This document shows, one piece after another, positions 2,143 through 40,561 of a DNA stretch of 40,561 nucleotides. The notes under the pieces were generated by a model. The model saw only the letters and a program-made list of their open reading frames with translations. It searched no databases and was not told the origin of the DNA. The stretch is taken from positions 1-40,561 of the forward strand of contig CASFRV010000024.1 of assembly GCA_949297215.1 (NCBI GenBank), in the 5' to 3' direction. Source of the DNA: an uncultured Bacteroidales bacterium. GTDB lineage: Bacteria; Bacteroidota; Bacteroidia; Bacteroidales; Bacteroidaceae. Both the position numbers and the translations under genes were made by a program. Position 1 is the first letter of the stretch; the number at the start of each line of letters is the position of its first letter.

Positions 2143-2652
2143 GACCCCATAGGGGTCGCACTTTCTATAACCGCGGGTAAGCGTAGCGCACCCGCGGACA
2201 GGCTCCCCACACCATTCCGACCCCATCGGGGTCGAACTATCTATAACCGCGGGTAAGCCGAAGGCGAACCTGCGGAGAGGGTAAGCGCAGCGCGCCCGCG
2301 GACAGGAACTCCCCAAACCATGAGGACCCCATAGGGGTTCAACTATCTATAACCGCGGGCAAGCCGAAGGCGCACCTGCGGAGAGGGTAAGCGCAGCGCA
2401 CCCGCGGACAGGCTCCACACACTATTCCGACCCCATGGGGGTCGAACTTCATCCCGACGTCGTGCGGGCGCAGGGATGCGCGGCACGGGGCTTTGGCGGG
2501 TGACCGCACCACGCTGTCCGCGGGTGAGCCTGCGGCTTACCCGCGGTAAGGGGAAGTTGGACCCCTATGGGGTCCCATTATAGGGTGAGTTCTGTCCGCA
2601 GGTTCGCCTTTGGCTCACCCGCGGTTATAGAAAGTTCGCCCCCTATGGGGGC
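2143..2652. repeat. Alpha-beta palindromic mosaic element (expanded copy)
   Basis: Forward half (2143-2443): alternating short palindromes (GACCCCATAGGGGTC and variants at 2143, 2219, 2324 and 2429) and hairpins CCGCGGGT...ACCCGCGG, joined by a CTATAA-type spacer. Reverse half (2518-2652): the same modules inverted, ending in GCCCCCTATGGGGGC, where both arms have changed together. Other copies in the window have two forward alpha-beta units; this one is expanded. It contains no credible gene. Confidence 0.85.
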
Positions 2653-2726
2653 GCTTGCCCCGCGGTGTGGTTGTGGGCCGTATGTGATATTCGGCCGCAT
2701 GCGACGAATGTTGCCACGAGGCAGGC

Positions 2727-2977
2727 GGCCTCCAAGAGGCCGGGCTATGAGTAGCCTCGGGTGGAGCGCAGCGGAACCCGAGGTGGGGCGGTGCGTGGAG
2801 ATGTCGGCCTCGAAGAGGTCGCTATGCCCGCTAGATGTCGGCCTCGAAGAGGTCGCTATGCCCGCTGCGGCCTGTGGCATAGACGCCTCTTCGAGGCTAT
2901 CTTCGTTATGTGCTCCTTTTCCGCGGGTTCCGCTGCGCTCCACCCGCGGTTACTCATAGCCCGGCCCCCTTGGGGCC
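2727..2977. repeat. Epsilon palindromic mosaic element, copy 1
   Basis: Starts with palindrome GGCCTCCAAGAGGCC and ends with GGCCCCCTTGGGGCC. In between are CCTCGGGT...ACCCGAGG and CCGCGGGT...ACCCGCGG hairpins and a duplicated segment carrying GGCCTCGAAGAGGTC (about 2804 and 2840). The plan is that of alpha-beta: short palindrome, ~13-nt spacer, long hairpin. An inverted partner lies at 14968-15105 and shares more than 80 bp. Confidence 0.75.
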
Positions 2978-3045
2978 GCTCGTGCTACGAAGGACCGACG
3001 ATAAGGGCCGGCAGTGTGCCGGCGATGCCAGGTGTCCGCTGCGTA

Positions 3046-3140
3046 GAGACGCGATTCATCGCGTCTCACCCGCTCGGGGCACAGCCCCGCCCGGCATTCC
3101 TCCCCACGCCGGGCCATCCCGGCGTCGCTCCTGTGGCTGC
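3046..3140. repeat. Delta/gamma hybrid palindromic element
   Basis: Begins with the delta palindrome (arm GAGACGCGAT, 3046-3067). A CGGGGC/GCCCCG inner hairpin follows, then a right end of gamma type (ACGCCGGG/CCCGGCGT, then a GTCGCTCCTGTGG tail, compare 15160-15190). The element therefore combines ends of two related families. Confidence 0.6.
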
Positions 3141-3449
3141 TCCCCGCGGCGCACCGCCCCGCCCGCCATCGTCCCCGCCACATTTCTGCATATTCCGCAC
3201 CGTTTATACATTTTGCCCGCCGTCGCCTCAGGGGGCGTTCGGGGCTGTTTGCCACGCCGTTTGGCCCGCTTGCCCCACAGAGCGGGGCGCGTACTGCGGC
3301 GCGGGCCGAAAGCATAAATGCAAGGTTATGCAGGAAATATCGACCGAATATTGCAAAGCCCGCATGGCAAAGAGGCGTTGTAGCATCACGGATAGTTAAA
3401 AAAATAAGCTTATATCTACAAATTTTATCCCCGTTACGTGGAAAACGGC

Positions 3450-3457
3450 TATCTTTG
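3450..3457 (+). promoter_or_regulatory. Bacteroidetes-type -7 box of the SusC operon
   Basis: TATCTTTG fits the TAnnTTTG consensus. It sits in an A+T-rich stretch (3390-3585) that contrasts with the surrounding DNA. No good -33 TTTG is visible at the usual spacing. It predicts a leader of roughly 120 nt before the ATG at 3586. Confidence 0.6.
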
Positions 3458-3585
3458 CAAATTGATATGTTTGGGCCGTAAAAAGTGGCAACTTGTCACA
3501 AAAGACGCAAAGGGCGCGGCAATATGGCAAGCCCCGCCCCCGGAAAACGAAGATTATACACAATGTTTAATTTAATGGTTATATT

Positions 3586-6555
3586 ATGAACAAGAAGTTA
3601 GTGCTTTTGTCGGCTCTTGCCCTTATGGGGAGCGGGACGCTGATGGCACAGAAGCGCGTGACGGGTCGCATCCTCGACACCGACGGGCAGCCGGTCTATG
3701 GCGCCCACGTCAAGGTGGAGGGCACCGACATCGTCACGGCGACCGACGCCGAGGGCCGCTTCACCCTGACGAACGTACCCTCGTCGGCCAAGCGCGTGAG
3801 CGTTTCCTACATCGGCATGCAGACGCAGACCGTGAGCATCTCGGGCAACATGAACGTCGTGCTCGAACAAAACGACCGCCTGCTCGAAGAGGCCGTCGTC
3901 GTGGGTTACGGTACGGCCAAGAAAATCGGTAGCGTCACGGGCGCCATTAAGAAAGTGAACGCCGAAGCCGTTACAGACAAGCCTACGGTCAACGTCATCG
4001 ACGCTCTGCAAGGCCAGGTGTCGGGATTGCAAATCCTAAACAACTCCGGTGAAGTTGCTAACTTGAATTCGTTCTCTATGAATATCCGTGGTATCGGTTC
4101 GCTTTCGGCCAATACCACTCCTTTGATTGTTGTGGACGGCTCTCCGGCCGGAGTGCAAGTGTTCTCGCTGATGAACGACGACGACATCGAGAGCATCACC
4201 GTGCTGAAGGACGCTTCGGCCACGGCCATCTATGGTTCGCGTGCCGCCAACGGCGTCATCTATATAACCACCAAGAAAGGCCGCCGAAATGAAAAGGCCC
4301 AGGTGACCGTTTCGCAGAAAATCGGTTGGAGCCAGCTGGCCAACGGCATCGGCAACCCCATGAACTCCACCGAAATCCTCGACTTCCAGTTTGAAAACGG
4401 TGTTATCGATGCAGAGCAGTACATCCGATTCAAAGAGCACGGCGCCAACACCGACTGGCAGCGCTACTTCTTCGACAACGCCGCCCCCATGTATGAAACA
4501 GCCCTTTCGATACAGGGCGGTAGCCAGTCGACCTCTTATTTCATCTCGACCTCGTACTTGAAGCAAGACGGTATCACCCACGCTTCCTCCCTAAAGCGCT
4601 ATACATTGCGTGCCAACATCGACAGCAAAATCAACGACTGGCTGCAAGTGGGCCTCAACCAGAACGCGGCCTACTCCGAGCGCCGCACCGAAAACTGGAC
4701 GGACAACGGCGAGAACAGCGCGGGCAACTATGCCGTCAACGCATACATGGATCTTCCCTACTGGGATCCGTTCGACGAAGAGTCGATGGCCAACCACGTC
4801 GTGTGGGGAAAGGACTCGTACGACACGCAATGGCTGCTCGATCAAAACCCCGTATGGTACAACGACGTCAACTATAACGGAACCGCCTACATCCAGCTGA
4901 CGCCCATGCGCGGCCTGACGCTGCGCTCGCAGCTGGGTCTGCACGCCTTTGAGTCGCGTGGTTCGTCAAAGGTGCTGCCCTCATATCCCGGAGCCGGGCA
5001 GCAGGCAGGAGCTTCCGAGAGCTTCTCGCGCATGGCCATGTGGACCATCACGAATACGGCCGAATACAAATTCAACATCGGCACCGACCACGCCTTCACG
5101 CTGTTGGCCGGGCAGGAAGGCATCAAATACACCAGCAGTGGCTTTGGCGCGCAGGGCAACGGCTTTACCGACAACCGTCTGACGGAGCTGGGCAACGCCA
5201 CCATCGCCGTTCTGCCCACGAGTAGCTACTCGAAGTATGAGTACCTCTCGTTCTTCGGCCGCGTGGACTACTCTTTAAAGGAAAAGTACTTTGCCGACTT
5301 CACCGTGCGCTCCGATGCCTCTTCGCGCTTCGGACGCGACAACCGCACCGCCCTGTTCTACTCCGGCGGCCTCATGTGGAACATGAAGAAAGAAGCCTTC
5401 ATGGAGCCCGTTTCGTGGATTTCGGCCTTGCAGCTCAAAGCCAGCGTCGGCTCGACGGGTAACTCCGAGATTGGCGACTACACGCATCTTGGCATCATCG
5501 GAACCACCATCTACAACAACACCACCGGCTGGGGCCTCGCGCAACCGGCCAACACGCAGCTCGGCTGGGAAAAGCAGATACAGACGAACGTGGGCTTCAA
5601 CCTCTCGCTCTGGAACAAGCTCCACATCGACTTCAGCTGGTACAACCGTCTGACAAAGGACATGCTCATGTCGATGCCGCTGCCCTACACCACGGGCTTC
5701 TCGTCGCAGATGATGAACATCGGCCAGCTGCGCAACCGCGGTGTCGAGGTGGAAGTCATTTGGGACGCCATCCGCACGGACGAAGCCTACCTGACGCTGC
5801 GCGCCAACTACTCCTACAACAAAAACGAAATCATCAAGCTCTTCAACGGCATCACCGAATGGCCCAACGAAGGAGCGCTCACCAGCTACATCGAGGGCAA
5901 GAGCCTCAACTACTACATGCCCATCTCTGCCGGTGTTGACGCCACGGACGGTGCCCCCATGTGGTACCTGCCGGGCCACAGCGGAGAGCGCGTTCACACG
6001 TTCAACCCCGAAACGATGACCAAGGACGCCAACATGATCAACGACCTCTACCAGGATACGGGCAAACCCGTGTATGCTCCCCATACAGGCGGTTTCGGCA
6101 TCGCCGGTGGCTGGAAAGGTCTGACCATCTCGGCCGACTTCTCCTTCGTGTTGGGCAAGTGGATGGTCAACAACGACTACTACTTTGCCAACAGCAGAGA
6201 AAATGCAACGAGCGGCTTTTGCAACCAGGACAAGGACATGCTGACCAACGTATGGAAGAAGCCGGGCGACATCACCCCACGCTCTGCGCTGGAATATCAG
6301 ACGCAATTTGACACGCAATGGCTGGAAAATGCATCGTTCCTGCGCCTGAAGAACCTCACGGTGGCCTACGACCTGCCGAAAGCATGGATGAAAGCAACTG
6401 GATTCATCAGCAACTTCCGCATCACAGCCCAGGCACGCAACCTCTTCACCATCACGAAGTACAAAGGCACCGACCCCGAAATCATGGCCAACGTCAACTT
6501 GGGAAGCTACCCCGCAACCCGTCAGTACACCATCGGGGCCGAGATTACGTTCTAA
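3586..6555 (+). CDS. SusC/RagA-family TonB-dependent outer membrane transporter
   Basis: Outer membrane importer that works with a SusD lipoprotein to bring in oligosaccharides or peptides. The 989 residues start with a signal peptide (cleavage near MAQ, 20-22). Next comes a carboxypeptidase-regulatory-like beta domain (about 24-100), a TonB-box region with EAVVVGYGT, and a plug domain with the family hallmarks NIRGIGS, PLIVVDG, VLKDASATAIYGSRAANGVI and ITTKKG. The rest is a 22-strand-type barrel ending in an aromatic residue (ITF). Length is normal for the family. The SusD gene follows 31 bp later. The segment around 4030-4140 is noticeably richer in A+T than its flanks. No sigma/anti-sigma pair, sensor or glycoside hydrolase adjoins it, so the substrate is unknown. 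Confidence 0.96.
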   Translation: MNKKLVLLSALALMGSGTLMAQKRVTGRILDTDGQPVYGAHVKVEGTDIVTATDAEGRFTLTNVPSSAKRVSVSYIGMQTQTVSISGNMNVVLEQNDRLLEEAVVVGYGTAKKIGSVTGAIKKVNAEAVTDKPTVNVIDALQGQVSGLQILNNSGEVANLNSFSMNIRGIGSLSANTTPLIVVDGSPAGVQVFSLMNDDDIESITVLKDASATAIYGSRAANGVIYITTKKGRRNEKAQVTVSQKIGWSQLANGIGNPMNSTEILDFQFENGVIDAEQYIRFKEHGANTDWQRYFFDNAAPMYETALSIQGGSQSTSYFISTSYLKQDGITHASSLKRYTLRANIDSKINDWLQVGLNQNAAYSERRTENWTDNGENSAGNYAVNAYMDLPYWDPFDEESMANHVVWGKDSYDTQWLLDQNPVWYNDVNYNGTAYIQLTPMRGLTLRSQLGLHAFESRGSSKVLPSYPGAGQQAGASESFSRMAMWTITNTAEYKFNIGTDHAFTLLAGQEGIKYTSSGFGAQGNGFTDNRLTELGNATIAVLPTSSYSKYEYLSFFGRVDYSLKEKYFADFTVRSDASSRFGRDNRTALFYSGGLMWNMKKEAFMEPVSWISALQLKASVGSTGNSEIGDYTHLGIIGTTIYNNTTGWGLAQPANTQLGWEKQIQTNVGFNLSLWNKLHIDFSWYNRLTKDMLMSMPLPYTTGFSSQMMNIGQLRNRGVEVEVIWDAIRTDEAYLTLRANYSYNKNEIIKLFNGITEWPNEGALTSYIEGKSLNYYMPISAGVDATDGAPMWYLPGHSGERVHTFNPETMTKDANMINDLYQDTGKPVYAPHTGGFGIAGGWKGLTISADFSFVLGKWMVNNDYYFANSRENATSGFCNQDKDMLTNVWKKPGDITPRSALEYQTQFDTQWLENASFLRLKNLTVAYDLPKAWMKATGFISNFRITAQARNLFTITKYKGTDPEIMANVNLGSYPATRQYTIGAEITF

Positions 6556-6586
6556 CAATTCATTCACATTTAGATACAGCAAAACA

Positions 6587-8077
6587 ATGAATAAGTATAT
6601 TGCAAAGACAATATTAGGTTCGGCCCTGCTTTTGCCGTTGGTATCTTCCTGCGAATTGGACCAGTTTCCGCGCGGAAGCATCATGGAAGAAAACAGCTGG
6701 GAGCAGGTGAGCGACGCCACGAACTATTATGTCGGCTTGCAATCTGCCCTGCGTAATGTCATCGGCGGCTCTCAGGTGTACGTATCTGAGATGCAGACCG
6801 ACTTGTTCAACACGACGTTTGGAGCAACCAGCTTGCAGCAGGAGCACGATTGGTCCTTCACCACGATGCAGTTTGCAGGAGATGTAAAATGGGTCAACAA
6901 CTATTCGTTGATTTCCAATGCCAACGAAATTATCAACAACATTGATAAAATTCAGGTGGAAACCGACGAAGACCAGCTCTATCTCGACAACATCAAGGGC
7001 GCTGCCTACTTTGCCCGCGCCTATGCCTACTCCAACATGGTCGTGCGCTACTGCAAGGACTATGAGCCCGCCACGGCTGCCGGCGAGCTGGGCCTGCCCC
7101 TCGTGGAAACGGTCGACGTGAACGCCAAGCCCCGCCGCTCGACGCTCGAAGAGACCTATCAGTTCATCATGGACGACATCGAGCGCGCCCATCAGTACCT
7201 GAAGACGACGGGCACCGTCACCGAGCCGGGCACCGACGCCCTCACGGCGCTGGAAGCACGCATGGACCTCTACATGCACAAGTATGACGAGGCCGCCGAG
7301 AAGGCACAGAGCCTCATGGCCAAGTACCCGCTCATCAGCGACGCCGCCACGTTTGCTTCGATGTGGAGCAACGACGCCGGGTCGGAAATCATCTATCAGC
7401 CCATCCTGATTGCACCGAACGAACTGGGTATGGGATATGCCGGCATCTACATCTCCTATAACACGAGCCTGCGCCGCTACAATCCGTCGTTCCTGCCCAC
7501 GCAAGGCCTGATGGACATGTACGAAAGCAGCGACTACCGCAAGAGCACCTACTTCGTAGAGGTAAACCTCAGTGCCAACGGTGGTGCAAGGGATGAAGGC
7601 TACATGTTCTACAAGTATCCCGGCAACCCCGCCCTGCGTCAAAGCGAAACTGACTTCTACAACATGACGAAAGCTTTCCGCTCGGCCGAGCTCTACCTCA
7701 TCGCTGCCGAGGCCGAGCTGATGAAGGACAACAAGGACGAGGGTGCCGCCCTGGGCTACCTGAACACCCTGCGCCAGAACCGCGGCGCTTCGGCCCTGAG
7801 CTCCACGGGTGACCAGCTCGTGCAGGACATGAAGGACGAGTGGGTGCGCGAAATGGTGGGCGAAGGCTTCCGCCTCGACTGTCTGAAGCGCTGGCACGAA
7901 GGTTTCACGCGTAAGCCTGCACAATCGTTCAGCACGGCCATCCTCTCTACCGAGATGAACACACAGAACCTCACCATATCGGCCGACAACCAGAAGTTTG
8001 TATGGGAAATCCCCAGCAACGACCTCCAAGCCAACACCAACTTGGAACGCAACTGGACGTCGACGACGGCTCAATAA
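6587..8077 (+). CDS. SusD/RagB-family nutrient-binding outer membrane lipoprotein
   Basis: Surface lipoprotein that caps the SusC barrel and binds the nutrient. The 496 residues open with a lipoprotein signal peptide whose lipobox ends at Cys22 (LVSSC). Typical SusD features follow: a helical tetratricopeptide-like body (GAAYFARAYAYSNMVVRYCKDY), the LPLVETVD segment, and the conserved C-terminal RSAELYLIAAEAELMK...LNTLRQNRG. A late WEIPSNDLQANTNLERN ending is also common in the family. It follows SusC by 31 bp and precedes another lipoprotein gene by 50 bp, consistent with one transcript. The start at 6587 is fixed by the signal peptide. Confidence 0.95.
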   Translation: MNKYIAKTILGSALLLPLVSSCELDQFPRGSIMEENSWEQVSDATNYYVGLQSALRNVIGGSQVYVSEMQTDLFNTTFGATSLQQEHDWSFTTMQFAGDVKWVNNYSLISNANEIINNIDKIQVETDEDQLYLDNIKGAAYFARAYAYSNMVVRYCKDYEPATAAGELGLPLVETVDVNAKPRRSTLEETYQFIMDDIERAHQYLKTTGTVTEPGTDALTALEARMDLYMHKYDEAAEKAQSLMAKYPLISDAATFASMWSNDAGSEIIYQPILIAPNELGMGYAGIYISYNTSLRRYNPSFLPTQGLMDMYESSDYRKSTYFVEVNLSANGGARDEGYMFYKYPGNPALRQSETDFYNMTKAFRSAELYLIAAEAELMKDNKDEGAALGYLNTLRQNRGASALSSTGDQLVQDMKDEWVREMVGEGFRLDCLKRWHEGFTRKPAQSFSTAILSTEMNTQNLTISADNQKFVWEIPSNDLQANTNLERNWTSTTAQ

Positions 8078-8127
8078 GCCGAGGGTTCAAAAAGTAAAAC
8101 CATTAACCAGAGAAACGAAGAAACAAA

Positions 8128-8856
8128 ATGAAACAATACATCAAGACTTTGGCGCTCTGCCTGATGGCGGGCCTGGGCCTGGCCTCCTGCAACGACAACT
8201 TCGACGAGGACGAGGGCTTCGTGACCTACCCCGAGCACGTGGCCTTGGGCACTTGGGAATGTGAGTACGTGAACAGCACGACGCCATACAGCGACTTCAC
8301 CATCTCCCTTACGCTCAATGAAGAAGGCGACACCATCTGCAACCTCACTTTCTACGAGGAAGCTTACGACACCTGGTACATCTTCACCAATGGAGAGGTA
8401 ACTTACAATCCTACCGTCGGCATGACGCAGGTTTCGTTCGACGCCTCTTCCCAAGGCATCCCGGCCGAACTCAACATGGCCTTGCAGCGCGACTTGGAGA
8501 CCATGGGCGTGCAGTTCATCATGAACGGCAATACCGCAGGTAAGCTCAGCTTCCGCGGCGAGCGCGTCGCATCCTTCAACGTAGTTGGCCAGTGGACGGG
8601 CACCGACGCCGCAGGCAACACGCTCAGCCTCAACTTCGACAACGAAGAGGGCACCTGCGCCGTAGCGCTCAACTATGCCGACGCCACAGCAACCGACCTC
8701 ACGGCATCGGGCACCTATACCTTCGCCGACGGCACGGGCGCCGTGGCCTACACCACCACCGAAGGCCAGGCAGCCTCCATCGCCCTCGGCCTGAACGACA
8801 AGAACCAGCTCACGGCCACCACGGCCAACGGCACCACCTACGTCATGGCCCGCTGA
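8128..8856 (+). CDS. Hypothetical lipoprotein of the SusCD operon
   Basis: A 242-residue predicted lipoprotein with Cys21 in LASC followed by an acidic stretch (NDNFDEDEG), an arrangement often seen in surface-exposed Bacteroidetes lipoproteins. The rest is rich in Thr, Gly and Asn and looks all-beta, with internally similar strands (GTWECEYVNSTTP... near 45 and VVGQWTGTDAAGNTLSLNF near 150), suggesting two lipocalin/calycin-like halves. I do not recognise a named family. It is the last gene before a strong terminator, so a role in binding the substrate of this SusCD system is a reasonable inference. Confidence 0.85.
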   Translation: MKQYIKTLALCLMAGLGLASCNDNFDEDEGFVTYPEHVALGTWECEYVNSTTPYSDFTISLTLNEEGDTICNLTFYEEAYDTWYIFTNGEVTYNPTVGMTQVSFDASSQGIPAELNMALQRDLETMGVQFIMNGNTAGKLSFRGERVASFNVVGQWTGTDAAGNTLSLNFDNEEGTCAVALNYADATATDLTASGTYTFADGTGAVAYTTTEGQAASIALGLNDKNQLTATTANGTTYVMAR

Positions 8857-8877
8857 CAACAGCCGCCACAACGCCTA

Positions 8878-8917
8878 CGCCCCGCCCCGGTCCTCCGACG
8901 GCGGGGCGATTTTTTTA
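8878..8917 (+). terminator. Terminator of the SusCD operon
   Basis: A 9-bp G+C stem (CGCCCCGCC at 8878-8886 with GGCGGGGCG at 8900-8908) is followed by an A and a run of T, 22 bp after the last stop codon. Confidence 0.85.
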
Positions 8918-8970
8918 ATTGACAATGGACAATTAAGAATTGACAATGGACAATTGACAATGGACAATGC
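8918..8970. repeat. Tandem TTGACAATGGACAA-type short repeat
   Basis: Several imperfect tandem copies of a 10-12-nt unit (TTGACAATGGACAA). A similar array in the opposite orientation lies at 9597-9630, and a remnant (AATGGACAATTAT) lies near 35019. The two arrays bracket the 9125-9425 mosaic element. Confidence 0.75.
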
Positions 8971-9040: not shown

Positions 9041-9124
9041 CACGGCATTCCCCACACACCATATTATATATACGCGCGCGAATGGATCGTCCGATGCCAC
9101 CCTAAGCCACACCGCGAGGCCTGC

Positions 9125-9425
9125 GCCCCCATAGGGGGCGAACTTTCGATAACCGCGGGTGAGCCAAAGGCGAACCCGCGGACAGAACCCACCCTATAAT
9201 GGGACCCCATAGGGGTCCAACTTCCCGTTACCGCGGGTAAGCCGCAGGCATACCCGCGGACAACGCCGCACAGTCTACCACCACAGCCCCCAACCACGCA
9301 TCCCGGCACCCGCACGACGCCGACATGAAGTGCGACCCCCCTGGGGTCGGAGTTGTGTGGTAGTTCCTGTCCGCGGGTACGCTTCGCTTACCCGCGGTTA
9401 TCAATAGTGCGACCCCTATGGGGTC
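9125..9425. repeat. Alpha-beta palindromic mosaic element
   Basis: A standard ~300-bp copy. GCCCCCATAGGGGGC (9125-9139, both arms changed relative to GACCCC/GGGGTC), hairpin CCGCGGGT...ACCCGCGG, a second alpha-beta unit, and a ~70-nt spacer containing CCGCACGACG come first. The inverted half follows, ending in GACCCCTATGGGGTC (9411-9425). It lies between the SusCD terminator and the TauE promoter. Confidence 0.85.
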
Positions 9426-9596
9426 GGCAACACCACTGCTTGCACCCCATCAGCCTCGCAGTGATCCGCCACGCCCACCCGCACGCAGCAGGCACCCTGC
9501 CTTCGCGGCTACACGCCGCGCGCCAAGCGCCGCGGACGCGGAGGACCCGCAAAGGCGAGCTCCGCAGGGGCGACGCCACCCCACGGGGCAAGAAAA

Positions 9597-10906: not shown

Positions 10907-10918
10907 GCCGGGCGCGGC

Positions 10919-14530: not shown

Positions 14531-14583
14531 ATCCCATGCGGCAGAATATCACCCAGACCCCGTAGCCACACCGCGAGGCAAGC

Positions 14584-14883
14584 GACCCCATAGGGGTCGA
14601 ACCATCTATAACCGCGGGTGAGCCAAAGGCGAACCCGCGGAAAGAATCCACCCAACAATGGGACCCCATAGGGGTCCAACTTCGCATTACCGCGGGTACG
14701 CCGCAGGCACACCCGCGAACAGCGTGGTGCAGTCGCCCACCAAAACCCCGAGCCACACATCCCGGCGCCCGCACGACCTCGGCATGAAGTTCGACCCCTA
14801 TGGGGTCGGAGTTGTGTGGAGTTCCTGTCCGCGGGTGCGCTGCGCTTACCCGCGGTTATAGAAAGTGCGACCCCTATGGGGTC
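14584..14883. repeat. Alpha-beta palindromic mosaic element
   Basis: A standard 300-bp copy from GACCCCATAGGGGTC (14584-14598) to GACCCCTATGGGGTC (14869-14883). It has two forward alpha-beta units, the ~70-nt spacer and the inverted half. Confidence 0.85.
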
Positions 14884-14967
14884 GGCAGCCTCGCGGCACT
14901 CACTTAACACCGCGCAGGTAGGCCGCGTAGCTCGCGTCCCCATCATCAGTCCCTCCGTCGCACGAGC

Positions 14968-15105
14968 GGCCCCAAGGGGGCCGGGCTATCAGTAGCCTCG
15001 GGTGGAGCGCAGCGGAACCCGAGGAAAGGGAGCACATAACGAAGATAGCCTCGAAGAGGCGTCTATGCCACAGGCCGCAGCGGGCATAGCGACCTCTTCG
15101 AGGCC
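14968..15105. repeat. Epsilon palindromic mosaic element, copy 2
   Basis: From GGCCCCAAGGGGGCC (14968-14982) through hairpin CCTCGGGT...ACCCGAGG to GACCTCTTCGAGGCC (15091-15105). The right part is the inverted counterpart of 2804-2920. A half gamma element (GGACGCCGGGATGGCGTC) follows at about 15159-15190. Confidence 0.7.
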
Positions 15106-15255
15106 GCCAGCCTCACCGCAACATTCCCTACGCCCGCACGGGAAGTCCGCCACGGGGTGGACGCCGGGATGGCGTCGCTCCTATGGCCGCCCCGCAGAAA
15201 GGCGTCGGGGCGGCCTGTGTCACGGAAACGTCACAGGTTTTTATGCTTTTTTATA

Positions 15256-15286
15256 TTGACGCCTCTGTCCGCATTTCGTAACTTTG
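15256..15286 (+). promoter_or_regulatory. Promoter of the large surface-protein gene
   Basis: TTG at 15256-15258, 20-bp gap, TAACTTTG at 15279-15286. This predicts a ~135-nt leader before the ATG at 15428. The region just upstream is A+T rich relative to the repeats. Confidence 0.65.
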
Positions 15287-15427
15287 CATCGGGAAAGTCC
15301 GGCTTTTCGCCTCGCGCCCGCTCCCCGCGGTGCCCGCAGCGCCGCCTGCGACGGCTGCCGGGCCCCTTCCCGCACGAAGATGAGAAAACCAATCAACATG
15401 TTTCACTATTTTAATCCAACAAAAGTC

Positions 15428-18400
15428 ATGAAGAAATTCTACACTTTGAAGTTGTTCCTCACGGTGCTCTTCGCTGCCGTGTTCGGAACGATGAGTGCCG
15501 ATGTGTCTTCGAACTTCACGGACGAAAAGCTGACCGTTAGCAGCGGCGAGCTGGGCTGGACGGCCAGCATCGCTGCCCAGCAATGGGACAGCCAGTACGA
15601 CCGTGGCGTTCAGTTCGGCACGTCGAAAAGCCCCGTCGGCACGTTCACGCTGACGGCCGGCCAGAGCCTCACGCAGGTGACGTCCGTGAGCATCACGGCC
15701 TCGGCCAGCGGTGCGGGCAACACCATCAGCGTCAACGTGGGTGGCGTTGAGTTTACGGGCGACGTGACGGAAATTGCCAGCGGCACCCAGAACGCCAACC
15801 AGGTCTACACCTTTACGGGCCCGGCCACGGACGGCGTCATCACCATCACCATCGATGACAACACGAAGGCCGTGTGGGTGAAGAGCATCGCTGTGGCCTG
15901 CACCGAAAGCAGCGTTGAAGGCGGTGGCGACACGCCCGATCCCGAGCCTGAGCCCGAACCCGAGCCCGAGGAAGGCGTCATCTTCAGCGAGTCGTTCGCC
16001 ACGAGCCAAGGCTCCTTCACCATCGACGACGTCAACCTGCCCGAGGGTCTCTCCTACGTTTGGAAGAACGACAACAACTATGGCTACATGAAGGCCAGCG
16101 CCTTCGTGAGTGGCACCGGCTACGCCGCCGAGAGCTGGCTCATCTCGCCCGAAATTGACCTGACGGCCCAGACGGGCAACGTGACGCTCACCTTCGAGCA
16201 GGCCTGCAACTACTTCAAGGGCACGTTGGCCGACGCCGTGTCGGTACAGGTGCGCGAGCAGGGCGGCGAGTGGACCAAGCTCGACGTGACGGGCTGGCCC
16301 GAAAGCGACAGCTGGGACTTCGTTAACGCCACGGCCGACCTCTCGGCCTACGCCGGCAAAACCATCCAGCTTGCCTTCGTCTACACCAGCACGGCCGAGG
16401 TGGCCGGTACGTGGGAATTGAAGAACGTCACCGTGCGCGGCGGAGAGGGCGGCACCGATCCCGAACCTCCCGTGGGCGAGGACGATGTCACGTTCTTCAG
16501 CGAGACGTTTGCCGACGGCCAAGGCGACTTCACCATCGACAACGTGCAGGAACCCGCCAGCGGTGGCTACGTATGGAGCCACGACAGCTCCCACGGCTAC
16601 ATGAAGGCCAGCTGCTTCATCGGTGGCCAGGACCTGGCTGCTGAAAGCTGGCTCATCTCGCCGGCCATCGACCTGACGAAAGCCACCGCAGCCACGCTGA
16701 GCTTCTCCCACTGCGCCAACTTCTTCGACGGTGCCGTGGCCGACGCTCTCTCCGTGCAGGTGCGCGAGCAGGGCGGCGAGTGGACCAAGCTCGAGGTGAG
16801 CCAGTGGCCCGCCGGCAACACCTGGGACTGGGTGGACGCCACGGCCGACCTCTCGGCCTACGTGGGCAAGACCGTTGAAATAGCCTTTGTCTACACCAGC
16901 CAGGACGGCGACGCCGGCACCTGGGAGGTGAAGAACGTTAGCGTCGCCGGTAAGGGCGAGGCAGGCGAGCAGCCCGACCCCGAACCCGAACCCGAGCCCG
17001 AACCCGAGCCCGGCGTCATCTTCAGCGAAACGTTCGCCACGGGCGAAGGCACCTTCACCATCGACAACACCACCCTGCCCGAGGAGCTCTCCTACGTGTG
17101 GAGCAACGACGACCGCTACGCCTGCATGAAGGCCAGCGCCTACGTGAACGGCACCAACTATGCCGCCGAGAGCTGGCTCGTCTCGCCCGAAATTGACCTG
17201 ACGGCCCAGACGGGCACCGTGACGCTCACCTTCGAGCACGCCACCAACTTCTTCAAGGGCACCCTGGCCGACGCCGTGTCGGTACAGGTGCGCGAAAAGG
17301 ACGGCGAGTGGACCGCGCTCAACGTGACGGGCTGGCCCGAAAGCGACGGCTGGACCTTCGTTGACGCCACGGCCGACCTCTCGGCCTACGCCGGCAAGAC
17401 CATCCAGATTGCCTTCGTCTACACCAGCACGGCCGACGTGGCCGGCACGTGGGAAGTGCGCAACGTCGTCATCCGCGGCGAAGAAGGCGGCGACACGCCC
17501 GAGCCCGAACCCGAGCCCGGCGTCATCTTCAGCGAGACGTTCGCCACGGGCGAAGGCACCTTCACCATCGACAACACCACCCTGCCCGAGGGTCTCTCCT
17601 ACGTGTGGAGCAACGACGACCGCTACTCGTGCATGAAGGCCAGCGCCTACGTGCAGGGCACCAACTACGCCGCCGAGAGCTGGCTCATCTCGCCCGAAAT
17701 CGACCTGACGGCCCAGACGGGCACCGTGACGCTCACCTTCGAGCACGCCACCAACTTCTTCAAGGGCACGCTCGCCGACGCCGTGTCGGTACAGGTGCGC
17801 GAAAAGGACGGCCAGTGGACCACGCTCAACGTGACGGGCTGGCCCGAAACCGACAGCTGGACCTTCGTTGACGCATCGGCCGACCTCTCGGCCTACGCCG
17901 GCAAGACCATCCAGATCGCCTTCGTCTACACGAGCACGGCCGACGTGGCCGGCACGTGGGAAGTGCGCAACGTTGTCGTCAGCGGCGAAGAGGGTGGCGA
18001 CGAGCCCATCGGTCCCGAGCCTCCCGTAGCCGACGTTGTGTTCAACTTCAACGCCAACGCATGGGGTCTGCCCGTTTCCGACAGCAGCAACCCGACGCAG
18101 GGCAACGTCACCGCTCCCATCACGCAGGACGGCGTAACGCTGACGGCCGAGGGCGGTTCGACGGCTCCCCGCATGTACCTCAACTTCACCACGCAGCTGC
18201 CTCAGCTCCGCGTCTACAAGGGTGCCACCGTCACGCTCACGGCTCCCGAGGGCAAGAAGTTCCTCTCCATCACCTGGTACGACGGCAACGACAAGTTCTC
18301 GGCCACGGCCGACAACGGCACGTGGGACGACGCCTCCTACACGTGGACGGGCGAGGCCACGACCGTGACGTTCACCATCGCCGGTACGAGCAACACCAAC

Positions 18401-18589
18401 TTCATCGCCCTCGACCTTGACAACACCACGGGCATCGACGGCCTGACCGACGGCGCCGCCAACGCTCCCGTCGACGTTTACAGCATCGACGGCCGCCTGC
18501 TCCGCACAAACGTGGCACGCAGCGAGGCTGCCAACGGTCTGCCCGCCGGCATCTACGTCATCGGTGGCCAGAAGGTCGTTGTGAAGTAA
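15428..18589 (+). CDS. Large surface protein with four tandem adhesin-like domains and T9SS-type tail
   Basis: A 1053-residue exported protein, probably cell-surface attached or secreted. The ATG at 15428 gives the best signal peptide (MKKFYTLKLFLTVLFAAVFG); in-frame ATGs further upstream (for example 15380) would precede it. An N-terminal beta domain (about 25-165) is followed by four repeats of roughly 155 residues starting at residues 184, 354, 530 and 699. Each reads IFSETFA..G.FTIDN...YVW...MKAS...AESWLISPEIDL...DAVSVQVREQGGEWT...WPE...DLSAYAGKTIQIAFVYTS...AGTWEVKNV. This pattern fits the cleaved-adhesin / choice-of-anchor-J fold. Acidic Pro-Glu linkers (EPEPEPEPEP) separate the repeats. 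A last beta domain and a tail (VDVYSIDGRLL...LPAGIYVIGGQKVVVK) resemble T9SS sorting signals. No catalytic motif was seen; binding to host or matrix is inferred. Confidence 0.88.
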   Translation: MKKFYTLKLFLTVLFAAVFGTMSADVSSNFTDEKLTVSSGELGWTASIAAQQWDSQYDRGVQFGTSKSPVGTFTLTAGQSLTQVTSVSITASASGAGNTISVNVGGVEFTGDVTEIASGTQNANQVYTFTGPATDGVITITIDDNTKAVWVKSIAVACTESSVEGGGDTPDPEPEPEPEPEEGVIFSESFATSQGSFTIDDVNLPEGLSYVWKNDNNYGYMKASAFVSGTGYAAESWLISPEIDLTAQTGNVTLTFEQACNYFKGTLADAVSVQVREQGGEWTKLDVTGWPESDSWDFVNATADLSAYAGKTIQLAFVYTSTAEVAGTWELKNVTVRGGEGGTDPEPPVGEDDVTFFSETFADGQGDFTIDNVQEPASGGYVWSHDSSHGYMKASCFIGGQDLAAESWLISPAIDLTKATAATLSFSHCANFFDGAVADALSVQVREQGGEWTKLEVSQWPAGNTWDWVDATADLSAYVGKTVEIAFVYTSQDGDAGTWEVKNVSVAGKGEAGEQPDPEPEPEPEPEPGVIFSETFATGEGTFTIDNTTLPEELSYVWSNDDRYACMKASAYVNGTNYAAESWLVSPEIDLTAQTGTVTLTFEHATNFFKGTLADAVSVQVREKDGEWTALNVTGWPESDGWTFVDATADLSAYAGKTIQIAFVYTSTADVAGTWEVRNVVIRGEEGGDTPEPEPEPGVIFSETFATGEGTFTIDNTTLPEGLSYVWSNDDRYSCMKASAYVQGTNYAAESWLISPEIDLTAQTGTVTLTFEHATNFFKGTLADAVSVQVREKDGQWTTLNVTGWPETDSWTFVDASADLSAYAGKTIQIAFVYTSTADVAGTWEVRNVVVSGEEGGDEPIGPEPPVADVVFNFNANAWGLPVSDSSNPTQGNVTAPITQDGVTLTAEGGSTAPRMYLNFTTQLPQLRVYKGATVTLTAPEGKKFLSITWYDGNDKFSATADNGTWDDASYTWTGEATTVTFTIAGTSNTNFIALDLDNTTGIDGLTDGAANAPVDVYSIDGRLLRTNVARSEAANGLPAGIYVIGGQKVVVK
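15977..17988 (+). repeat. Four in-frame tandem domain repeats inside the surface-protein gene
   Basis: Units begin at 15977, 16487, 17015 and 17522, spaced 510, 528 and 507 bp. Units 3 and 4 are almost identical at the nucleotide level, including synonymous positions. Unit 2 is the most divergent. Recent duplication or gene conversion of 3 and 4 is implied, so the repeat number may vary between strains. Confidence 0.85.
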
Positions 18590-18637
18590 ACCCCATCCCC
18601 TCTCCCGCGCCGGGCACCCCGCCCGACGCCCCCAACC

Positions 18638-18672
18638 GCCCGCCCGGACCGCAAGGCCCGGGCGGGCTTTTT
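18638..18672 (+). terminator. Terminator of the large surface-protein gene
   Basis: A 10-bp G+C stem (GCCCGCCCGG at 18638-18647 with CCGGGCGGGC at 18658-18667) is followed by five T, about 50 bp after the stop. Confidence 0.8.
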
Positions 18673-18709
18673 CGTGCCCACAGCCTCCCCCGTAAAAGGG
18701 GGCCGCTCC

Positions 18710-19052
18710 CCTGTGCGCTATATGGCAAACAGTTAAAGCGGACACCCACCGAGCTCCGCCTTCCAGCGTTGTTTTTGTGCGTCCGTCCGGCCGACGCACC
18801 GATCCAAGGGATGTTTCGCCCGAAGCATCCCATGGATTTCAGTTTCCAAGGGATGGATTTCGCCATCCAAGGCCTGTTTCTGCATGAAAAATCGCTCCGA
18901 ATCGTGCCATATAGTGGCGAAAAAGCCCTTCCAACGGTGTTTTATGAAGGAGTGTCGCGCGGATGTATCTCATATTCAAGCGTTTCTATTTTTCGCGTAT
19001 TTGCGAGCAAGGGAGCAGTCGCGCGAAAATAATCGATTCTCCGTGTTAAAAA
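18710..19052. repeat. Zeta palindrome-rich element, copy A
   Basis: A ~343-bp element closely matching 39979-40320 in order and mostly in sequence. It opens with CCTGTGCGCTATATGGCAAA and GTTAAAGCGGAC. A palindrome around CGAAGCATCCCATGGAT follows, then a GGGATGG/CCATCC hairpin, GTGCCATATAGTGGCGAA, a TTCGCG...CGCGAA inverted pair, and CGATTCTCCGTGTTAAAA. The first palindrome here has mismatches relative to copy B. No credible ORF and no transposase. Confidence 0.8.
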
Positions 19053-23556: not shown

Positions 23557-23634
23557 GGGGAGCCGCATAAAAACACACATAGTCGGGCCGTTGGGCGATG
23601 TCCACCCGACCTAAAACCACACCGCAAGGCCGGC

Positions 23635-24103
23635 GACCCCATAGGGGTCGAACCTTCTATAACCGCGGGTGAGCCAAGGGCGAACCCGCGGACAGGCCCC
23701 ACCCTGTAATGGGACCCCATGGGGGTCCAAGACCCGCGAAGATACATCATGCCCAGCCGCAGGGAGTACCCACCACATTCCAAGGCCACACCGCGAGGCC
23801 GGCGACCCCATAGGGGTCGAACCTTCTATAACCGCGGGTGAGCCAAGGGCGAACCCGCGGACAGGCCCCACCTTGTAATGGGACCCCATGGGGGTCCAAC
23901 TTCCCACTACCGTGGGTAGGCCGCAGGCACTCCCGCGGAGCAGCGAGGTGCTATCAGCCGCCAAGGCCCCGGGCCACGCATCCCCGTACCTGCACGACGT
24001 CGGAGGGAAGTGCGACCCCCATGGGGTCGGAGTAGTGTAGGAGCCTGTCCGCGGGTGCGCTGCGCTTACCCGCGGTTATCAAAAGTGCGACCCCTATGGG
24101 GTC
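23635..24103. repeat. Alpha-beta mosaic element with a 169-bp internal duplication
   Basis: The first forward segment (GACCCCATAGGGGTC, hairpin, second palindrome) occurs at 23635 and again at 23804. A normal second half follows, ending in GACCCCTATGGGGTC at 24089-24103. Between the two is a short unique stretch (about 23731-23780). Confidence 0.8.
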
Positions 24104-24197
24104 GACAGCCACGCGGCATGCACACCGACCGCCACGCAGTAAGCAGGTACGCTCCGTCTGCACAGGAAGTCCGCCACGTAGAGACGCGATTCATCGC

Positions 24198-34937: not shown

Positions 34938-35063
34938 AGACAAAAGGGGGAAAAGAGGAGGAAACGGCGCACAACCTTAACACACAGACGCGGGAAGAGG
35001 TTCGAGGCGCAGCCCCGCAATGGACAATTATGGCTGTCACCACTCCCAGTCCGCGTGGCTGTC

Positions 35064-35360
35064 GACCCCATCGGGGTCGAACTTCCGATAACCGCGGGTA
35101 AGCGAAGCGCACCCGCGGACAAAACTCACCTATCAAATGGGACCCTATGGGGGTCCAACTTCGATTACCACGGGTAAGCCACAGGCGCACCCGTGGACAA
35201 CGCAGTGCTATCACCCGCCAAAGCCCCATGCAACGCATACCGGCGGCCGCACGACGTCGGTATGAAGTACGACCCTTATAGGGTCGGAGTAGTGGGGGAG
35301 TCCTGTCCGCGGGTGGCTTCGCTCACCCGCGGTTATTAATGGTGCGACCCCCATGGGGTC
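35064..35360. repeat. Alpha-beta palindromic mosaic element
   Basis: Runs from GACCCCATCGGGGTC (35064-35078) to GACCCCCATGGGGTC (35346-35360) in the usual order. It lies between the divergent sialidase and purD units. A remnant of the TTGACAATGGACAA repeat (AATGGACAATTAT) lies just before it near 35019. Confidence 0.85.
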
Positions 35361-35399
35361 GTCAGCCTCGCTGCCTGCACACCATCAACCGCCCCGCAC

Positions 35400-35704: not shown

Positions 35705-35733
35705 TCCGCTAAAAGAACCAAAAGACAAGCAGC

Positions 35734-36999: not shown

Positions 37000-37017
37000 T
37001 CCCCCGCTCCACCACCG

Positions 37018-37953: not shown

Positions 37954-38390
37954 ACGAACTGCTCGTCCACTGGGGCTGGCTCGGGCTGTTTGTCTCGGCC
38001 TTCCTCTCGGGCACGGTGCTGCCGTTCAGCTCCGAAGTGGTGCTGCTGGCCTGCCTGGCGGGAGGCACACCGCCCCTGGCGGGCGTGGCAGCGGCCACGG
38101 CGGGCAACGCCCTGGGCGGCATGACGTGCTACTGGGTGGGCCGCCTCGGCCGCATCGAGTGGATCGGGCGCTACCTGCGCGTGGGGCCGCGCGAGCTGGC
38201 CCGTGCCCGCCGCTTCGTCAGCGGCCGCGGCGCCTGGATGGCCCTGCTCTCGTTTCTGCCCGTCGTGGGCGACGCCCTGCTCATCGTGCTGGGGCTCATG
38301 CGCGCCAATCCGTGGATCACGGCCGCCGCCATGACAGCCGGCAAGCTGGGCCGCTATGCCGCCATGGCGGGGCTCATCGAGCTTTTCTAA
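37941..38390 (+). CDS. YqaA/DedA-like small membrane protein (SNARE-associated family)
   Basis: A 149-residue inner membrane protein of the YqaA branch of the DedA/VTT superfamily. It shows the expected hairpin segments: GLFVSAFLSGTVLPFSSEVVLLACLAGG (about 14-41), GNALGGMTCYWVGRLGR, and RRFVSGRGAWMALLSFLPVVGDALLIVLGLMR with the conserved Arg and Pro-Gly-Asp type turn. DedA-like proteins act as lipid scramblases or in membrane homeostasis. This assignment comes from general family resemblance. It overlaps the preceding gene by 13 bp, and a metal-binding lipoprotein follows after 18 bp. Confidence 0.85.
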   Translation: MDALNELLVHWGWLGLFVSAFLSGTVLPFSSEVVLLACLAGGTPPLAGVAAATAGNALGGMTCYWVGRLGRIEWIGRYLRVGPRELARARRFVSGRGAWMALLSFLPVVGDALLIVLGLMRANPWITAAAMTAGKLGRYAAMAGLIELF

Positions 38391-38408
38391 CCATCTTTTC
38401 TCACCGAC

Positions 38409-39242
38409 ATGAACCGTCTTCTCCCCCTCCTCCTTGTGCTCCTGCTGCCCCTGGCCGGCTGCCGGCGCACCGCCTCCGCCCCCACGGAGCGCCCCGTGCT
38501 CACGGCCACCATCGTGCCGCTGGGCAGCTTTGTCGGCGCCATCGCCGGTCCTGGCTACGACGTGGCTGTGCTCGTGCCGCCCGGCGCCGGGCCCGAAACC
38601 TACGAGGCCACCACGCGCCAGCTCGTCGACCTGAGCCGCAGCCGTGCCCTGTTCCGCATCGGCACGCTGGGGCTCGAACAGACGCGCGTGGAAAAAATGG
38701 CCGAGACGGCCCCCGACCTGCTCACGACCGACGTGGCCCGCGGCATCGCCCCCGCCGCCGACGCCGGCCACGACCCGCACCTGTGGACCTCGCCCGCCAA
38801 CGTCCGCCACATGGCCCGAGCCATCCACGCCACGCTCTGCCGCATCGACCCCGAGGGCAAGGCCGGCTATGACCGGCGCCTGCGCGCCTTTGAGCGCCAC
38901 GCCGACAGCGTCGACACCGCCATACGCCGGCGCCTGCAAGGCGTCGAGGCCCGCACCTTCCTGGCGGCCCACCCCGCCCTGGGCAGCTTTGCGGCTGAAT
39001 ATGGGCTGCGCCAGCTCTGCGTCGAGCAGGACGGCAAGGAGCCCTCGCCCGAGGGCATCGCCCGCCTCATCCGCCAGTGCAAGGCCGAGGGCGTGCGCGT
39101 GGTCTTCGTGCAGAAGCAGCATCCCGCCCGCGCCGCCCGCCACATAGCCCGCGAAACGGGCGCACGCATCGTGGAAATTGACCCGCTGAGCAGCCATTGG
39201 GGCGACGAGCTGCTCCGCATAGCCGACGCCCTGGCCCAATGA
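38409..39242 (+). CDS. Metal ABC transporter substrate-binding lipoprotein (ZnuA/TroA-like)
   Basis: A 277-residue cluster-9 binding protein for zinc or manganese. It carries a lipoprotein signal (Cys18 in LPLAGC), VTATIVPLGSFV-like start of the first lobe, PGAGPETYEATTRQL, and metal-ligand candidates in GHDPHLWTSPANV, AAHPALGSFAAEYGL and the late VEIDPLSSHW. The classical His-rich loop of ZnuA is absent or reduced to DAGHDPH. One histidine normally found near the first lobe (DPHEY in many relatives) appears as GPETYE here, so the metal site may differ. Its stop overlaps the ATPase start (ATGA at 39239-39242). Confidence 0.9.
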   Translation: MNRLLPLLLVLLLPLAGCRRTASAPTERPVLTATIVPLGSFVGAIAGPGYDVAVLVPPGAGPETYEATTRQLVDLSRSRALFRIGTLGLEQTRVEKMAETAPDLLTTDVARGIAPAADAGHDPHLWTSPANVRHMARAIHATLCRIDPEGKAGYDRRLRAFERHADSVDTAIRRRLQGVEARTFLAAHPALGSFAAEYGLRQLCVEQDGKEPSPEGIARLIRQCKAEGVRVVFVQKQHPARAARHIARETGARIVEIDPLSSHWGDELLRIADALAQ

Positions 39243-39895
39243 ACGCCTCGCCCCTGAGCCTCAGCCACGTCAGCCTGGCCTACGGCACGCACCGCGTGCT
39301 CGACGAGGTCACGCTCGCCCTGCCCGCCACGGGCATCACCCTGCTCACGGGGCCCAACGGCGGGGGCAAGACGTCGCTGCTGCGCGTCATGGCCGGCCTG
39401 CTGCGCCCCGCCGCGGGCAGCGTCGAGCGCCGCCCCGGCCTGCTCACGGGCTACCTGCCCCAGCAGCGCCGCATCGACCGCCGCTTCCCCATCACCGTGG
39501 CCCAGGTGGTCGCCTCGGGCCTGCTCAACCGCCGCTCCATCTTCGGCCGCATGGGGCGCGAGGGCCGCGCCGCCGTGGAGCGCACCCTGGCCGAGCTCCG
39601 CCTCGACGCGCTGGCCGGACGGCCCATCGAAGCCCTCAGCGGCGGGCAGTGGCAACGCACGCTCTTGGCGCGCGCCGTCGTCTCCTCGCCCGGTCTGCTC
39701 CTGCTCGACGAGCCCGATACCCACCTCGACACCCCTTCGCGCGCCTTCCTCTACGACCGCCTCGCGGCCTGGGCCTCGACGTGCAGCATCGTCATCGTGA
39801 GCCACGACGCCGCGGCCGCCACTGCCCTCCGCCCCACCGCCACCTACGTGGCCGACGGCGGCCGCCTCAGCCTCGCCGCCCCCGCAGCCCTCTGA
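39239..39895 (+). CDS. Metal ABC transporter ATP-binding protein (ZnuC-like)
   Basis: A 218-residue ABC ATPase with Walker A GPNGGGKT (38-45), Q-loop region LPQQRRIDRRFPITVAQVV, signature LSGGQ (133-137), Walker B LLLLDEP (153-159) and switch His189 (SHD). The YLPQQRRIDRRFPITV segment is characteristic of the zinc/manganese (ZnuC/MntB) subgroup. The start codon overlaps the stop of the binding-protein gene. No permease gene follows: the remaining 666 bp hold only repeats. The membrane partner must be encoded elsewhere or beyond the window. Confidence 0.92.
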   Translation: MNASPLSLSHVSLAYGTHRVLDEVTLALPATGITLLTGPNGGGKTSLLRVMAGLLRPAAGSVERRPGLLTGYLPQQRRIDRRFPITVAQVVASGLLNRRSIFGRMGREGRAAVERTLAELRLDALAGRPIEALSGGQWQRTLLARAVVSSPGLLLLDEPDTHLDTPSRAFLYDRLAAWASTCSIVIVSHDAAAATALRPTATYVADGGRLSLAAPAAL

Positions 39896-39978
39896 CGCCC
39901 CGCCAACCCGCCGGGCACGCCCACGCCTCCCCCAAGAAAAAGCCACCGGCCGCACAAGGCCGCACGGGGCGCCGAAGC

Positions 39979-40320
39979 CCTGTGCGCTATATGGCAAACC
40001 GTTAAAGCGGACGCCCACGCCGACGCTCCTTCCAGCTTTGTTTTTGTGTGCCCATGCGGCGGCCCAACCGATCCATGGGATGTTTCGGCCGAAGCATCCC
40101 ATGGATTTCTGTTTCCAAGGGATGGATTTCGCCATCCAAGGCCTGTTTCCGATGGAAAAATCGCCCCAAAACGTGCCATATAGTGGCGAAATTCGCGTTT
40201 TTGGGCGTCCATGCGGCAGCTCGCCGCAAGGATGTCTTTGAAAATGAGATGTTTCTGATTTTCGCGTATTTGCGAGCGACGGAGCAGTCGCGCGAAAATA
40301 TTCGATTCTCCGTGTTAAAA
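39979..40320. repeat. Zeta palindrome-rich element, copy B
   Basis: The best-preserved copy, 342 bp. Its main palindrome (about 40070-40105: ATCCATGGGATG, inner TTCGGCCGAA, CATCCCATGGAT) is perfect except for one position pair. The element then has the GGGATGG/CCATCC hairpin, GTGCCATATAGTGGCGAA, the TTCGCG...CGCGAA pair and the CGATTCTCCGTGTTAAAA end. It follows the ABC gene directly, as copy A follows the large surface-protein gene. Confidence 0.85.
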
Positions 40321-40402
40321 AGCAGTTGTGGCGGGCAATCATCGATGGCTGCGCAGGGCAAAGGAAGTCCGAGCGAGTGTGCGGAGGGGCAGCGAGGCAA
40401 AC

Positions 40403-40561
40403 GCCCCCATAGGGGGCGAACTTTCTATAACCGCGGGTGAGCCAAAGGCGAACCTGCGGACTGAACCCACCCTATAATGGGACCCCATAGGGGTCCAACT
40501 TCCCCTTACCGCGGGTAAGCCGCAGGCACACCCGCGGACAACGCTACGCGGTCATCCGCCA
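40403..40561. repeat. Alpha-beta palindromic mosaic element, cut by the window end
   Basis: Starts with GCCCCCATAGGGGGC (40403-40417), then a hairpin, GGACCCCATAGGGGTCC and a second CCGCGGGT...ACCCGCGG hairpin. The inverted half lies beyond the window. It resembles the 9125 copy, including the paired G/C change in the first palindrome. Confidence 0.8.

Follow-up and report, generated by a model that had tools for sequence, protein, structure and literature searches.

Introduction

In repetitive extragenic palindrome (REP) systems, recognition of folded single-stranded DNA (ssDNA) has been described for TnpA-REP (PMC8266576, in the part of the text available). Among TnpA-Y1 enzymes, a signature of the YIKNQKEHH type marks subclass 1.2, for which Table 1 in the available portion of PMC6006769 gives REP as "no". 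The window analysed here, i.e., the whole stretch of DNA (bases 1-40561 of contig C24 in the 2.40-Mb Bacteroidales genome G000), was found to contain blocks of paired hairpins, and the description that suits these best is that of a REP-like system in which paired hairpins go with TnpA-Y1 subclass 1.2. It appears to work like REP/REPIN with its RAYT (REP-associated tyrosine transposase). On the preferred reading, held at a probability of roughly 78%, the blocks are non-autonomous repeats, and the REP/REPIN-like ssDNA system to which they belong is run by a TnpA of subclass 1.2. This reading draws on the anatomy of the blocks, their covariation, their genome-wide dispersal, a tnpA gene flanked by units, a common plan written in genome-specific letters, and turnover between two species, the congener G015 being used for comparison.

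Anatomy of the units and blocks

The unit was found to contain a palindrome P (6-7 bp with a 3-nt loop), followed by a linker of 8-10 nt ending in TAA or TAG and by a second hairpin H. In the window, P was the 7-bp palindrome CGACCCC-ATA-GGGGTCG, followed by a 9-nt linker, TAA, and an H hairpin of CCGCGGGT...ACCCGCGG, whose tip formed a small inner stem. The window contained 50 copies of the octamer ACCCGCGG, where 4.9 would be expected. The standard block contained units in the order +, +, - plus a fourth P without H, as in the block at 14583, where no H hairpin was found behind the fourth P. A second (beta) sequence type with GGCCTC or GGCCCC palindromes was found interleaved with these blocks at two places. 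The element pairs in the window were located between long open reading frames (ORFs) as inverted pairs, the intergenic position being judged by eye from the ORF list, and the DNA fold of 19256-19566 reached -110.2 kcal/mol (z -13.3). The features were as follows, each unit being given by its start and strand.

2142-2653, enlarged block: units 2142+, 2218+, 2324+, 2518- and 2596-; five P+H units, six P palindromes
2726-2978, beta-type pair: units 2726+ and 2921-; palindromes GGCCTC/GAGGCC and GGCCCC/GGGGCC
9124-9426, block: units 9124+, 9202+ and 9371-; extra P at 9334; outer palindrome GCCCCC/GGGGGC
14583-14884, block: full units 14583+, 14661+ and 14829-; extra (fourth) P at 14793
14967-15024, + strand, beta-type unit
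19260-20578, three blocks (19260, 19768, 20276): 508-bp tandem triplication; each with two + units and one - unit
23634-24104, block with duplicated outer unit: units 23634+, 23803+, 23881+ and 24049-
35063-35361, block: units 35063+, 35140+ and 35307-
40402-40561, + strand, block truncated by the window end: units 40402+ and 40480+

The initial annotation had announced ten blocks and listed nine positions, and nine blocks were found in the window. Their outer palindromes were present at exactly those positions (2143, 9125, 14584, 19261, 19769, 20277, 23635, 35064 and 40403), along with the GACCCC/GGGGTC and GCCCCC/GGGGGC variants of the outer palindrome and the GCC..GGC and GCG..CGC variants of the hairpin tip that it had described. 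Its plan of the same modules inverted was not quite right, as the standard block contained four P palindromes and only three full P+H units.

Paired change and folding

Paired changes were found to uphold both helices, P and H, with strong support short of an R-scape test. Three alignments were used, all fitted to a model and leaning towards its structure, with shared descent uncorrected. In the first, which contained 82 distinct units (94 model hits from five genomes), 98.4% of the cells were paired and 11 of 15 pairs changed on both sides, with 115 double-change cells against 23 in shuffles, which bears out the paired change claimed at the outset; when the partners were slid by 1-3 columns, 37-52% of the cells were paired. 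The wider set (78 hits, 61 distinct) was 97.8% paired, with 12 of 15 pairs double-changed and 138 such cells against 27 in shuffles. The third set contained 46 hits from 13 order genomes that had given no model seeds, and double changes were found in 12 of its 14 pairs predicted by RNAalifold.

Triloops, foot and strand

For the triloops, 36 units were hand-picked from 84 rows, of which 38 came from the further tnpA loci scanned with model R2 (below) and 46 from the order genomes of the third alignment, weak rows, repeats of the same family and two overlapping stretches being left out. The P triloop on the P-to-H strand was GNA in 30 of them, TNC in none and another sequence in six, and the stem was 4 bp or shorter in five. 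The bases 5′ of H were ATAA (23 units), ATAG (seven), GTAA (four) and GTAG (one), with none in one unit; the foot is close to the GT[AG]G foot of the canonical REP, but was found to be RTAR. Among repeated triloop palindromes at subclass-1.2 loci (L007 and L008 left out), 22 of 31 were GNA or TNC against 1/6 expected, with a p of 3e-11 that is too small, since the same family recurs at some of the loci. Of 222 stem-6 triloops at the control loci, 35 were GNA or TNC. GNA loops give extraordinarily stable DNA minihairpins, according to the available text of PMC4686876, which cites Hirao and Yoshizawa, and the H tips of the window contained the GNA minihairpin motifs GCGAAGC, GCGCAGC and GCGTAGC. 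One strand, as folded ssDNA, would be the substrate.

The elements may instead act as RNA, namely as hairpins transcribed between operons, where they would terminate transcription or serve to stabilise or process the mRNA, and be kept in place by selection. Such a role, left open by the initial annotation, agrees with the location between long ORFs in the window, with the strong hairpins and with the retention of paired changes, but it is disfavoured by the GNA triloops on one strand, known as stabilisers of DNA, and by Rfam, which gave 0 matches above the gathering score in the window. The plan was moreover tied to a DNA nuclease gene throughout an order, and the same-site copies of two species were not conserved as a regulator would be. 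An RNA role is considered very unlikely.

Dispersal and the partner gene

The pattern CCGCGGGT-N4..20-ACCCGCGG was found at 145 places in G000 and the reversed pattern at 1, so that the possibility of a few copies only, raised with the first description of the blocks, does not apply. In the first set of 101 genomes (G000, 57 others from its genus, another 3 from the family and another 40 from the order), the same hairpin pattern occurred 81 times in G015, once in G003 and not at all in the other 98.

Only one full Y1_Tnp gene (domain at C21:7474-7821, E 1.9e-28) plus one partial match was found in G000. The full protein (P0001, 151 aa) was found to contain the motifs DHVH and YIKNQKEHH, i.e., the DH[IV]H and Y---Q--HH signatures of TnpA-Y1 subclass 1.2, and its gene, tnpA, was located inside an array of units, with five units on its downstream side and, upstream, five in tandem (six palindromes) as well as others. 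G000 and G015 each contained a single copy of TnpA, in keeping with the low copy number of subclass 1.2, and several near-identical copies at different sites, as in IS200/IS605, were not found in these two genomes. The TnpA of G015 was 77% identical to that of G000, and the others among the 101 genomes at most 53%; the nearest outside relative belonged to an uncultured Alloprevotella sp. (L037).

The HuH, Y and Q--HH residues were unchanged across 16 relatives. The nearest solved relatives by sequence included the ISDra2 and IS608 transposases, and the predicted structure of the G015 TnpA (mean pLDDT, predicted local distance difference test, 87.9) gave ISDra2 complexes as top matches. IS608 came next along with further IS200-type transposases, and the complex of the E. 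coli RAYT with a REP hairpin (4er8) only at rank 30. HuH plus a single catalytic tyrosine on an IS608/ISDra2 TnpA fold is thus predicted for the enzyme. The WQ motif of the subclass 1.2 consensus was replaced by WA in G000 and WG in G015. In a tree of 58 proteins, whose labels were partly judged by hand and which omitted three near-copies, the duplicate L037 and all rows above L070, the gene fell in a 21-row group (support 92/99, inner order drawn open). WQ was found in 3 of these 21 rows and absent from 18, against 25 of 25 other subclass-1.2 rows, and the element-evidence label was carried by 20 of the 21 rows against 6 of the 25.

The REPIN-like spread by a trans-acting nuclease suggested in the initial annotation, which had proposed a search for a RAYT or other single-copy nuclease, is supported by association, in that the single full Y1 gene of the genome lies within a unit array. 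This gene is, however, no RAYT proper: NCBIfam scored it at 86.9 bits as IS200/IS605 transposase (cut-off 55) and 23.7 bits as RAYT (cut-off 80), and YIKNQKEHH stands where a class 2 RAYT has Y---NP. Membership in REP/REPIN-RAYT is not assigned, because the class 2 enzyme and the GT[AG]G foot were both tested and not found.

The same NCBIfam score favours the view that the blocks are the ends of an ordinary IS200/IS605 element plus internally deleted derivatives, similar to miniature inverted-repeat transposable elements (MITEs) or palindrome-associated transposable elements (PATEs), and not a domesticated REP system; the arrangement P-H > tnpA < H-P, found in several genomes, also resembles a complete element. 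The ends of IS200/IS605 are same-strand hairpins, whereas the element ends found here were inverted. The gene was present once each in G000 and G015, at the same chromosomal site, against more than 100 short copies, and an ordinary IS200/IS605 origin is considered unlikely. The recurrence of the design, in other letters, around the nuclease gene of many related bacteria points to a nuclease-and-repeat partnership.

The same plan in other letters across Bacteroidales

The only close TnpA was found in G015, the only other hairpin-rich genome of the 101, and its gene was likewise flanked by units. In other Bacteroidales, many subclass-1.2 genes were found to have palindromes of other sequence in their flanks. 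These again had a 6-7 bp stem with a 3-nt loop, and behind them came a linker, TAA or TAG, and then a hairpin. Palindromes of similar sequence bordered the gene on both sides (within 1.2 kb) at 22 of 45 subclass-1.2 loci, from which the duplicate L037 and loci with less than 200 bp on a side had been dropped, against 3 of 57 controls and 7 of 230 arbitrary windows, the last being overlapping windows from six genomes. The palindrome families were genome-specific: CTGGCTGGAAGCCAG was present in 13, 17 and 8 copies in G009, G010 and G024, was absent from the 9 other genomes tested, and flanked tnpA in G010 and G024. In G000, G015, G035, G010 and G024, the repeats flanking the gene were also found dispersed through the rest of the genome.

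The 78 units from which model R2 was built came from tnpA loci and stretches close to them. On 26 further, non-seed tnpA loci it gave hits at 15 with E<=0.001 and at 18 with E<=0.01, and at none of the 61 control loci (one of which, L056, bears the HH signature) even at E<=0.1. The R2 units were located directly outside the gene, + upstream and - downstream, and on both sides in L128, L131, L135, L145, L146 and L150, the second-side unit of L150 being weak (E 0.08).

Model-hit counts per genome are lower bounds, at most 55 candidates being scored in the first set and at most 19 in the order set. Element hits were found in at least 64 of the 295 order genomes (at least 54 of 184 genera) and a TnpA homologue in 172. 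The homologue was present in 58 of the 64 genomes with elements against 114 of the 231 without (Fisher p 4.6e-10), and in 55 of 61 element genomes when the seed genomes G000, G077 and G093 were left out. These hits suggest that the system is common in the order, where it may drive rearrangement.

Homologous recombination and slippage alone might also have spread the repeats, with tnpA lying among them by chance as a sharer of intergenic space. The tandem expansions (the 508-bp triplication and the five tandem units beside tnpA), the relocation of a gene block between element-bearing junctions and the existence of orphan repeat families suit this explanation, the first two being signs of recombination. 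But many genomes showed the flanking again, each time in different letters, and the 61 control loci did not show it, which leaves the explanation highly improbable.

Several results weigh against a REP/REPIN-like system run by TnpA. The P loop of the window itself was mostly ATA or ATG and not GNA, and the units beside the G000 tnpA differed from the simple inverted bracket of other genomes. On a looser count (at least three similar palindromes), 20 of 45 loci, 0 of 57 controls and 35 of 230 arbitrary windows scored, the last figure arising because those windows were themselves element-rich. The control loci were mostly IS200-type from Bacillota with another base composition, which may add to the contrast. 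The palindrome GCGTCTGGAAGACGC, which flanks tnpA in G009, was not dispersed: its 3 copies were found only in G009 and all beside tnpA, so that a flanking palindrome need not be dispersed. Orphan repeat families were found in G040 (99% complete; at least 27 model hits), G003 (at least 15) and G018 (at least 2), and no Y1 gene was found in these element-bearing congeners. Six order-set genomes (G200, G222, G255, G258, G329 and G352) contained elements and no TnpA homologue, 114 contained the homologue and no element hit, and 117 contained neither; strict one-to-one co-presence of element and tnpA is rejected on account of these orphans. In the first set, more than half of which were congeners, the association was weak (homologue in 12 of 16 against 40 of 85, p 0.056). 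No two-sided empty site was found in the search of G000 against G015, which gave one-sided or rearranged cases only.

Turnover between two species

Most of the window was found to be collinear with G015:C4, with long matches mostly 87-94% identical and 79% identity at 15.2-17.5 kb, in an internally repeated ORF. This ORF (15254-18799, - strand, 1182 aa) had no Pfam match, and its internal repeats were seen as shifted matches to G015.

At the four element-bearing junctions common to both species, the G000 blocks 2142 and 9124 being pooled for the first, the likeness of units was 75.4% at the same site across species, 75.8% at different sites, 83.1% between sites within G000 and 82.1% within G015. 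The best match of a G000 unit averaged 93.9% elsewhere in its own genome against 78.4% at the same G015 site. These identities indicate turnover, in which the sites persist and their content is replaced by copying or conversion. No unit was found at the G015 junctions matching the 35063 block, where a 5.8-kb gene block was located instead. A 5.8-kb block with SusC- and SusD-like genes (window 3172-8928, 94% identity) was located at a different junction in G015, and the comparison indicates that it has moved between element-bearing junctions. The end of G015:C26 contained units where G000:C21 had none, seen from one side only; as the empty-site cases were one-sided or rearranged, no insertion footprint is claimed.

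The tnpA locus was syntenic in G000 and G015, with flanks 90-94% identical, whereas a segment of about 4.7 kb with tnpA aligned only partly, at 74-77%. Within this poorly conserved segment, tnpA was adjoined by a small gene pair (L005:60-610), which we take to be a HigBA-type toxin-antitoxin. Between the two species, tnpA had a nonsynonymous divergence (dN) of 0.13 and a saturated synonymous divergence (dS) of 3.6, against a dS of mostly about 0.1-0.25 in the neighbour genes (exceptions 0.34, 0.40 and 0.93; overlapping wrong-frame ORFs were disregarded by eye). Simple vertical descent of tnpA is rejected on this contrast. The figures place tnpA under purifying selection, probably strong, and are compatible with exchange of tnpA alleles.

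It is possible, though doubtful, that these elements belong to a Bacteroidales-wide class in which the subclass-1.2 TnpA reads a composite signal of GNA minihairpin, linker, RTAR and H and keeps rewriting occupied intergenic sites. If so, once a tnpA allele had been exchanged, new repeats would take over the sites occupied by the old population. This would explain both the saturated dS of tnpA among its less diverged neighbours and the finding that, across species, copies sharing a site resemble each other no more than copies from different sites.

Neighbouring repeats

Another palindrome, GAGACGCGATTCATCGCGTCTC (up to 3 mismatches), was found at 3046, 8996, 14412, 14497, 25602 and 35501, preceded by GTA where read, and looks like a canonical GTAG REP. 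The G000:C3 domain P0002 contained NHVH, WQ and YIINNP, i.e., the motifs of RAYT subclass 2.4, with an NCBIfam RAYT score of 69.6 bits (cut-off 80). A canonical RAYT as partner of the paired-hairpin elements was set aside, since the motifs of this RAYT-like domain would suit the separate GTAG palindromes of the window better. Two REP-like systems may coexist in G000.

A third triloop palindrome, in GGACGCCA-NNN-TGGCGTCC pairs with mostly TCC/GGA loops, was found at 19111-20231, inside the 508-bp triplication.

Proposed mechanism and its bearing

In the proposed mechanism, a low-copy HuH TnpA would recognise the folded single strand of the two-hairpin unit (P with its GNA-type triloop, linker of 8-10 nt, RTAR foot and H), binding and nicking the P-to-H strand. 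RTAR would serve as the foot or guide, as GTAG does in REPs and as guide tetranucleotides do in IS608. Two units facing each other would form the mobile or copyable module, copying would proceed via ssDNA at replication forks, and arrays would arise through repeated insertion or duplication. The orphan TnpA-Y1 subclass 1.2 would thereby gain a candidate substrate and a reason for its retention. The REP partnership would be extended to the enzyme class nearest to the true IS200 transposases, which bears on the passage from insertion sequence to domesticated REP system, and the enzyme-repeat pairs of the same plan and different letters form a ready set for the co-evolution of ssDNA nuclease and hairpin.

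Comparison with known systems

No description of these repeats, or of REPs with subclass 1.2, was recognised in the literature searched, which included few subscription journals. BrickBuilt, a MITE of Porphyromonas gingivalis, is likewise a Bacteroidales intergenic repeat with internal tandem units, but it is a 23-nt minisatellite with leader and tail, present in 19 copies in one strain, and no paired triloop plan is described in the available text of PMC4596501. The CGTC-tagged REPs, also of Bacteroidetes, share the dispersed palindromes in inverted dimers; the accessible part of PMC3733652 gives them stems of 8-9 bp, loops of 4-5 nt, a CGTC tag and no transposase, whereas triloops and an RTAR foot were found here. 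The subclass 2.6 RAYT with "atypical secondary structures" is similar in occurring in Bacteroidetes with non-GTAG hairpins near the gene, but its enzyme is of another class (YIH[QN]NP; PMC6006769).

IS608 and ISDra2 are among the closest solved relatives by sequence and the closest by predicted fold; unlike them, the present system contains hairpin units in inverted pairs and many dispersed copies without tnpA, with the gene itself present only once in each of G000 and G015. The TnpA-Y1 subclass 1.2, as PMC6006769 presents it, agrees in the YIKNQKEHH signature, the occurrence in Bacteroidetes and Cyanobacteria and the low copy number, and differs in its entry for REP, whereas repeats were found here to flank many of its genes. 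The REP/REPIN-RAYT systems of the E. coli and Pseudomonas type differ in their Y---NP enzyme against Y---Q--HH here, in the foot (RTAR, with GTAG in 1 of 36 units) and in lacking the extra triloop palindrome P before the foot. What they share with the present system is a Y1 HuH gene of low copy number with its cognate hairpin repeats on either side, inverted pairs scattered between genes, and several subfamilies per genome.

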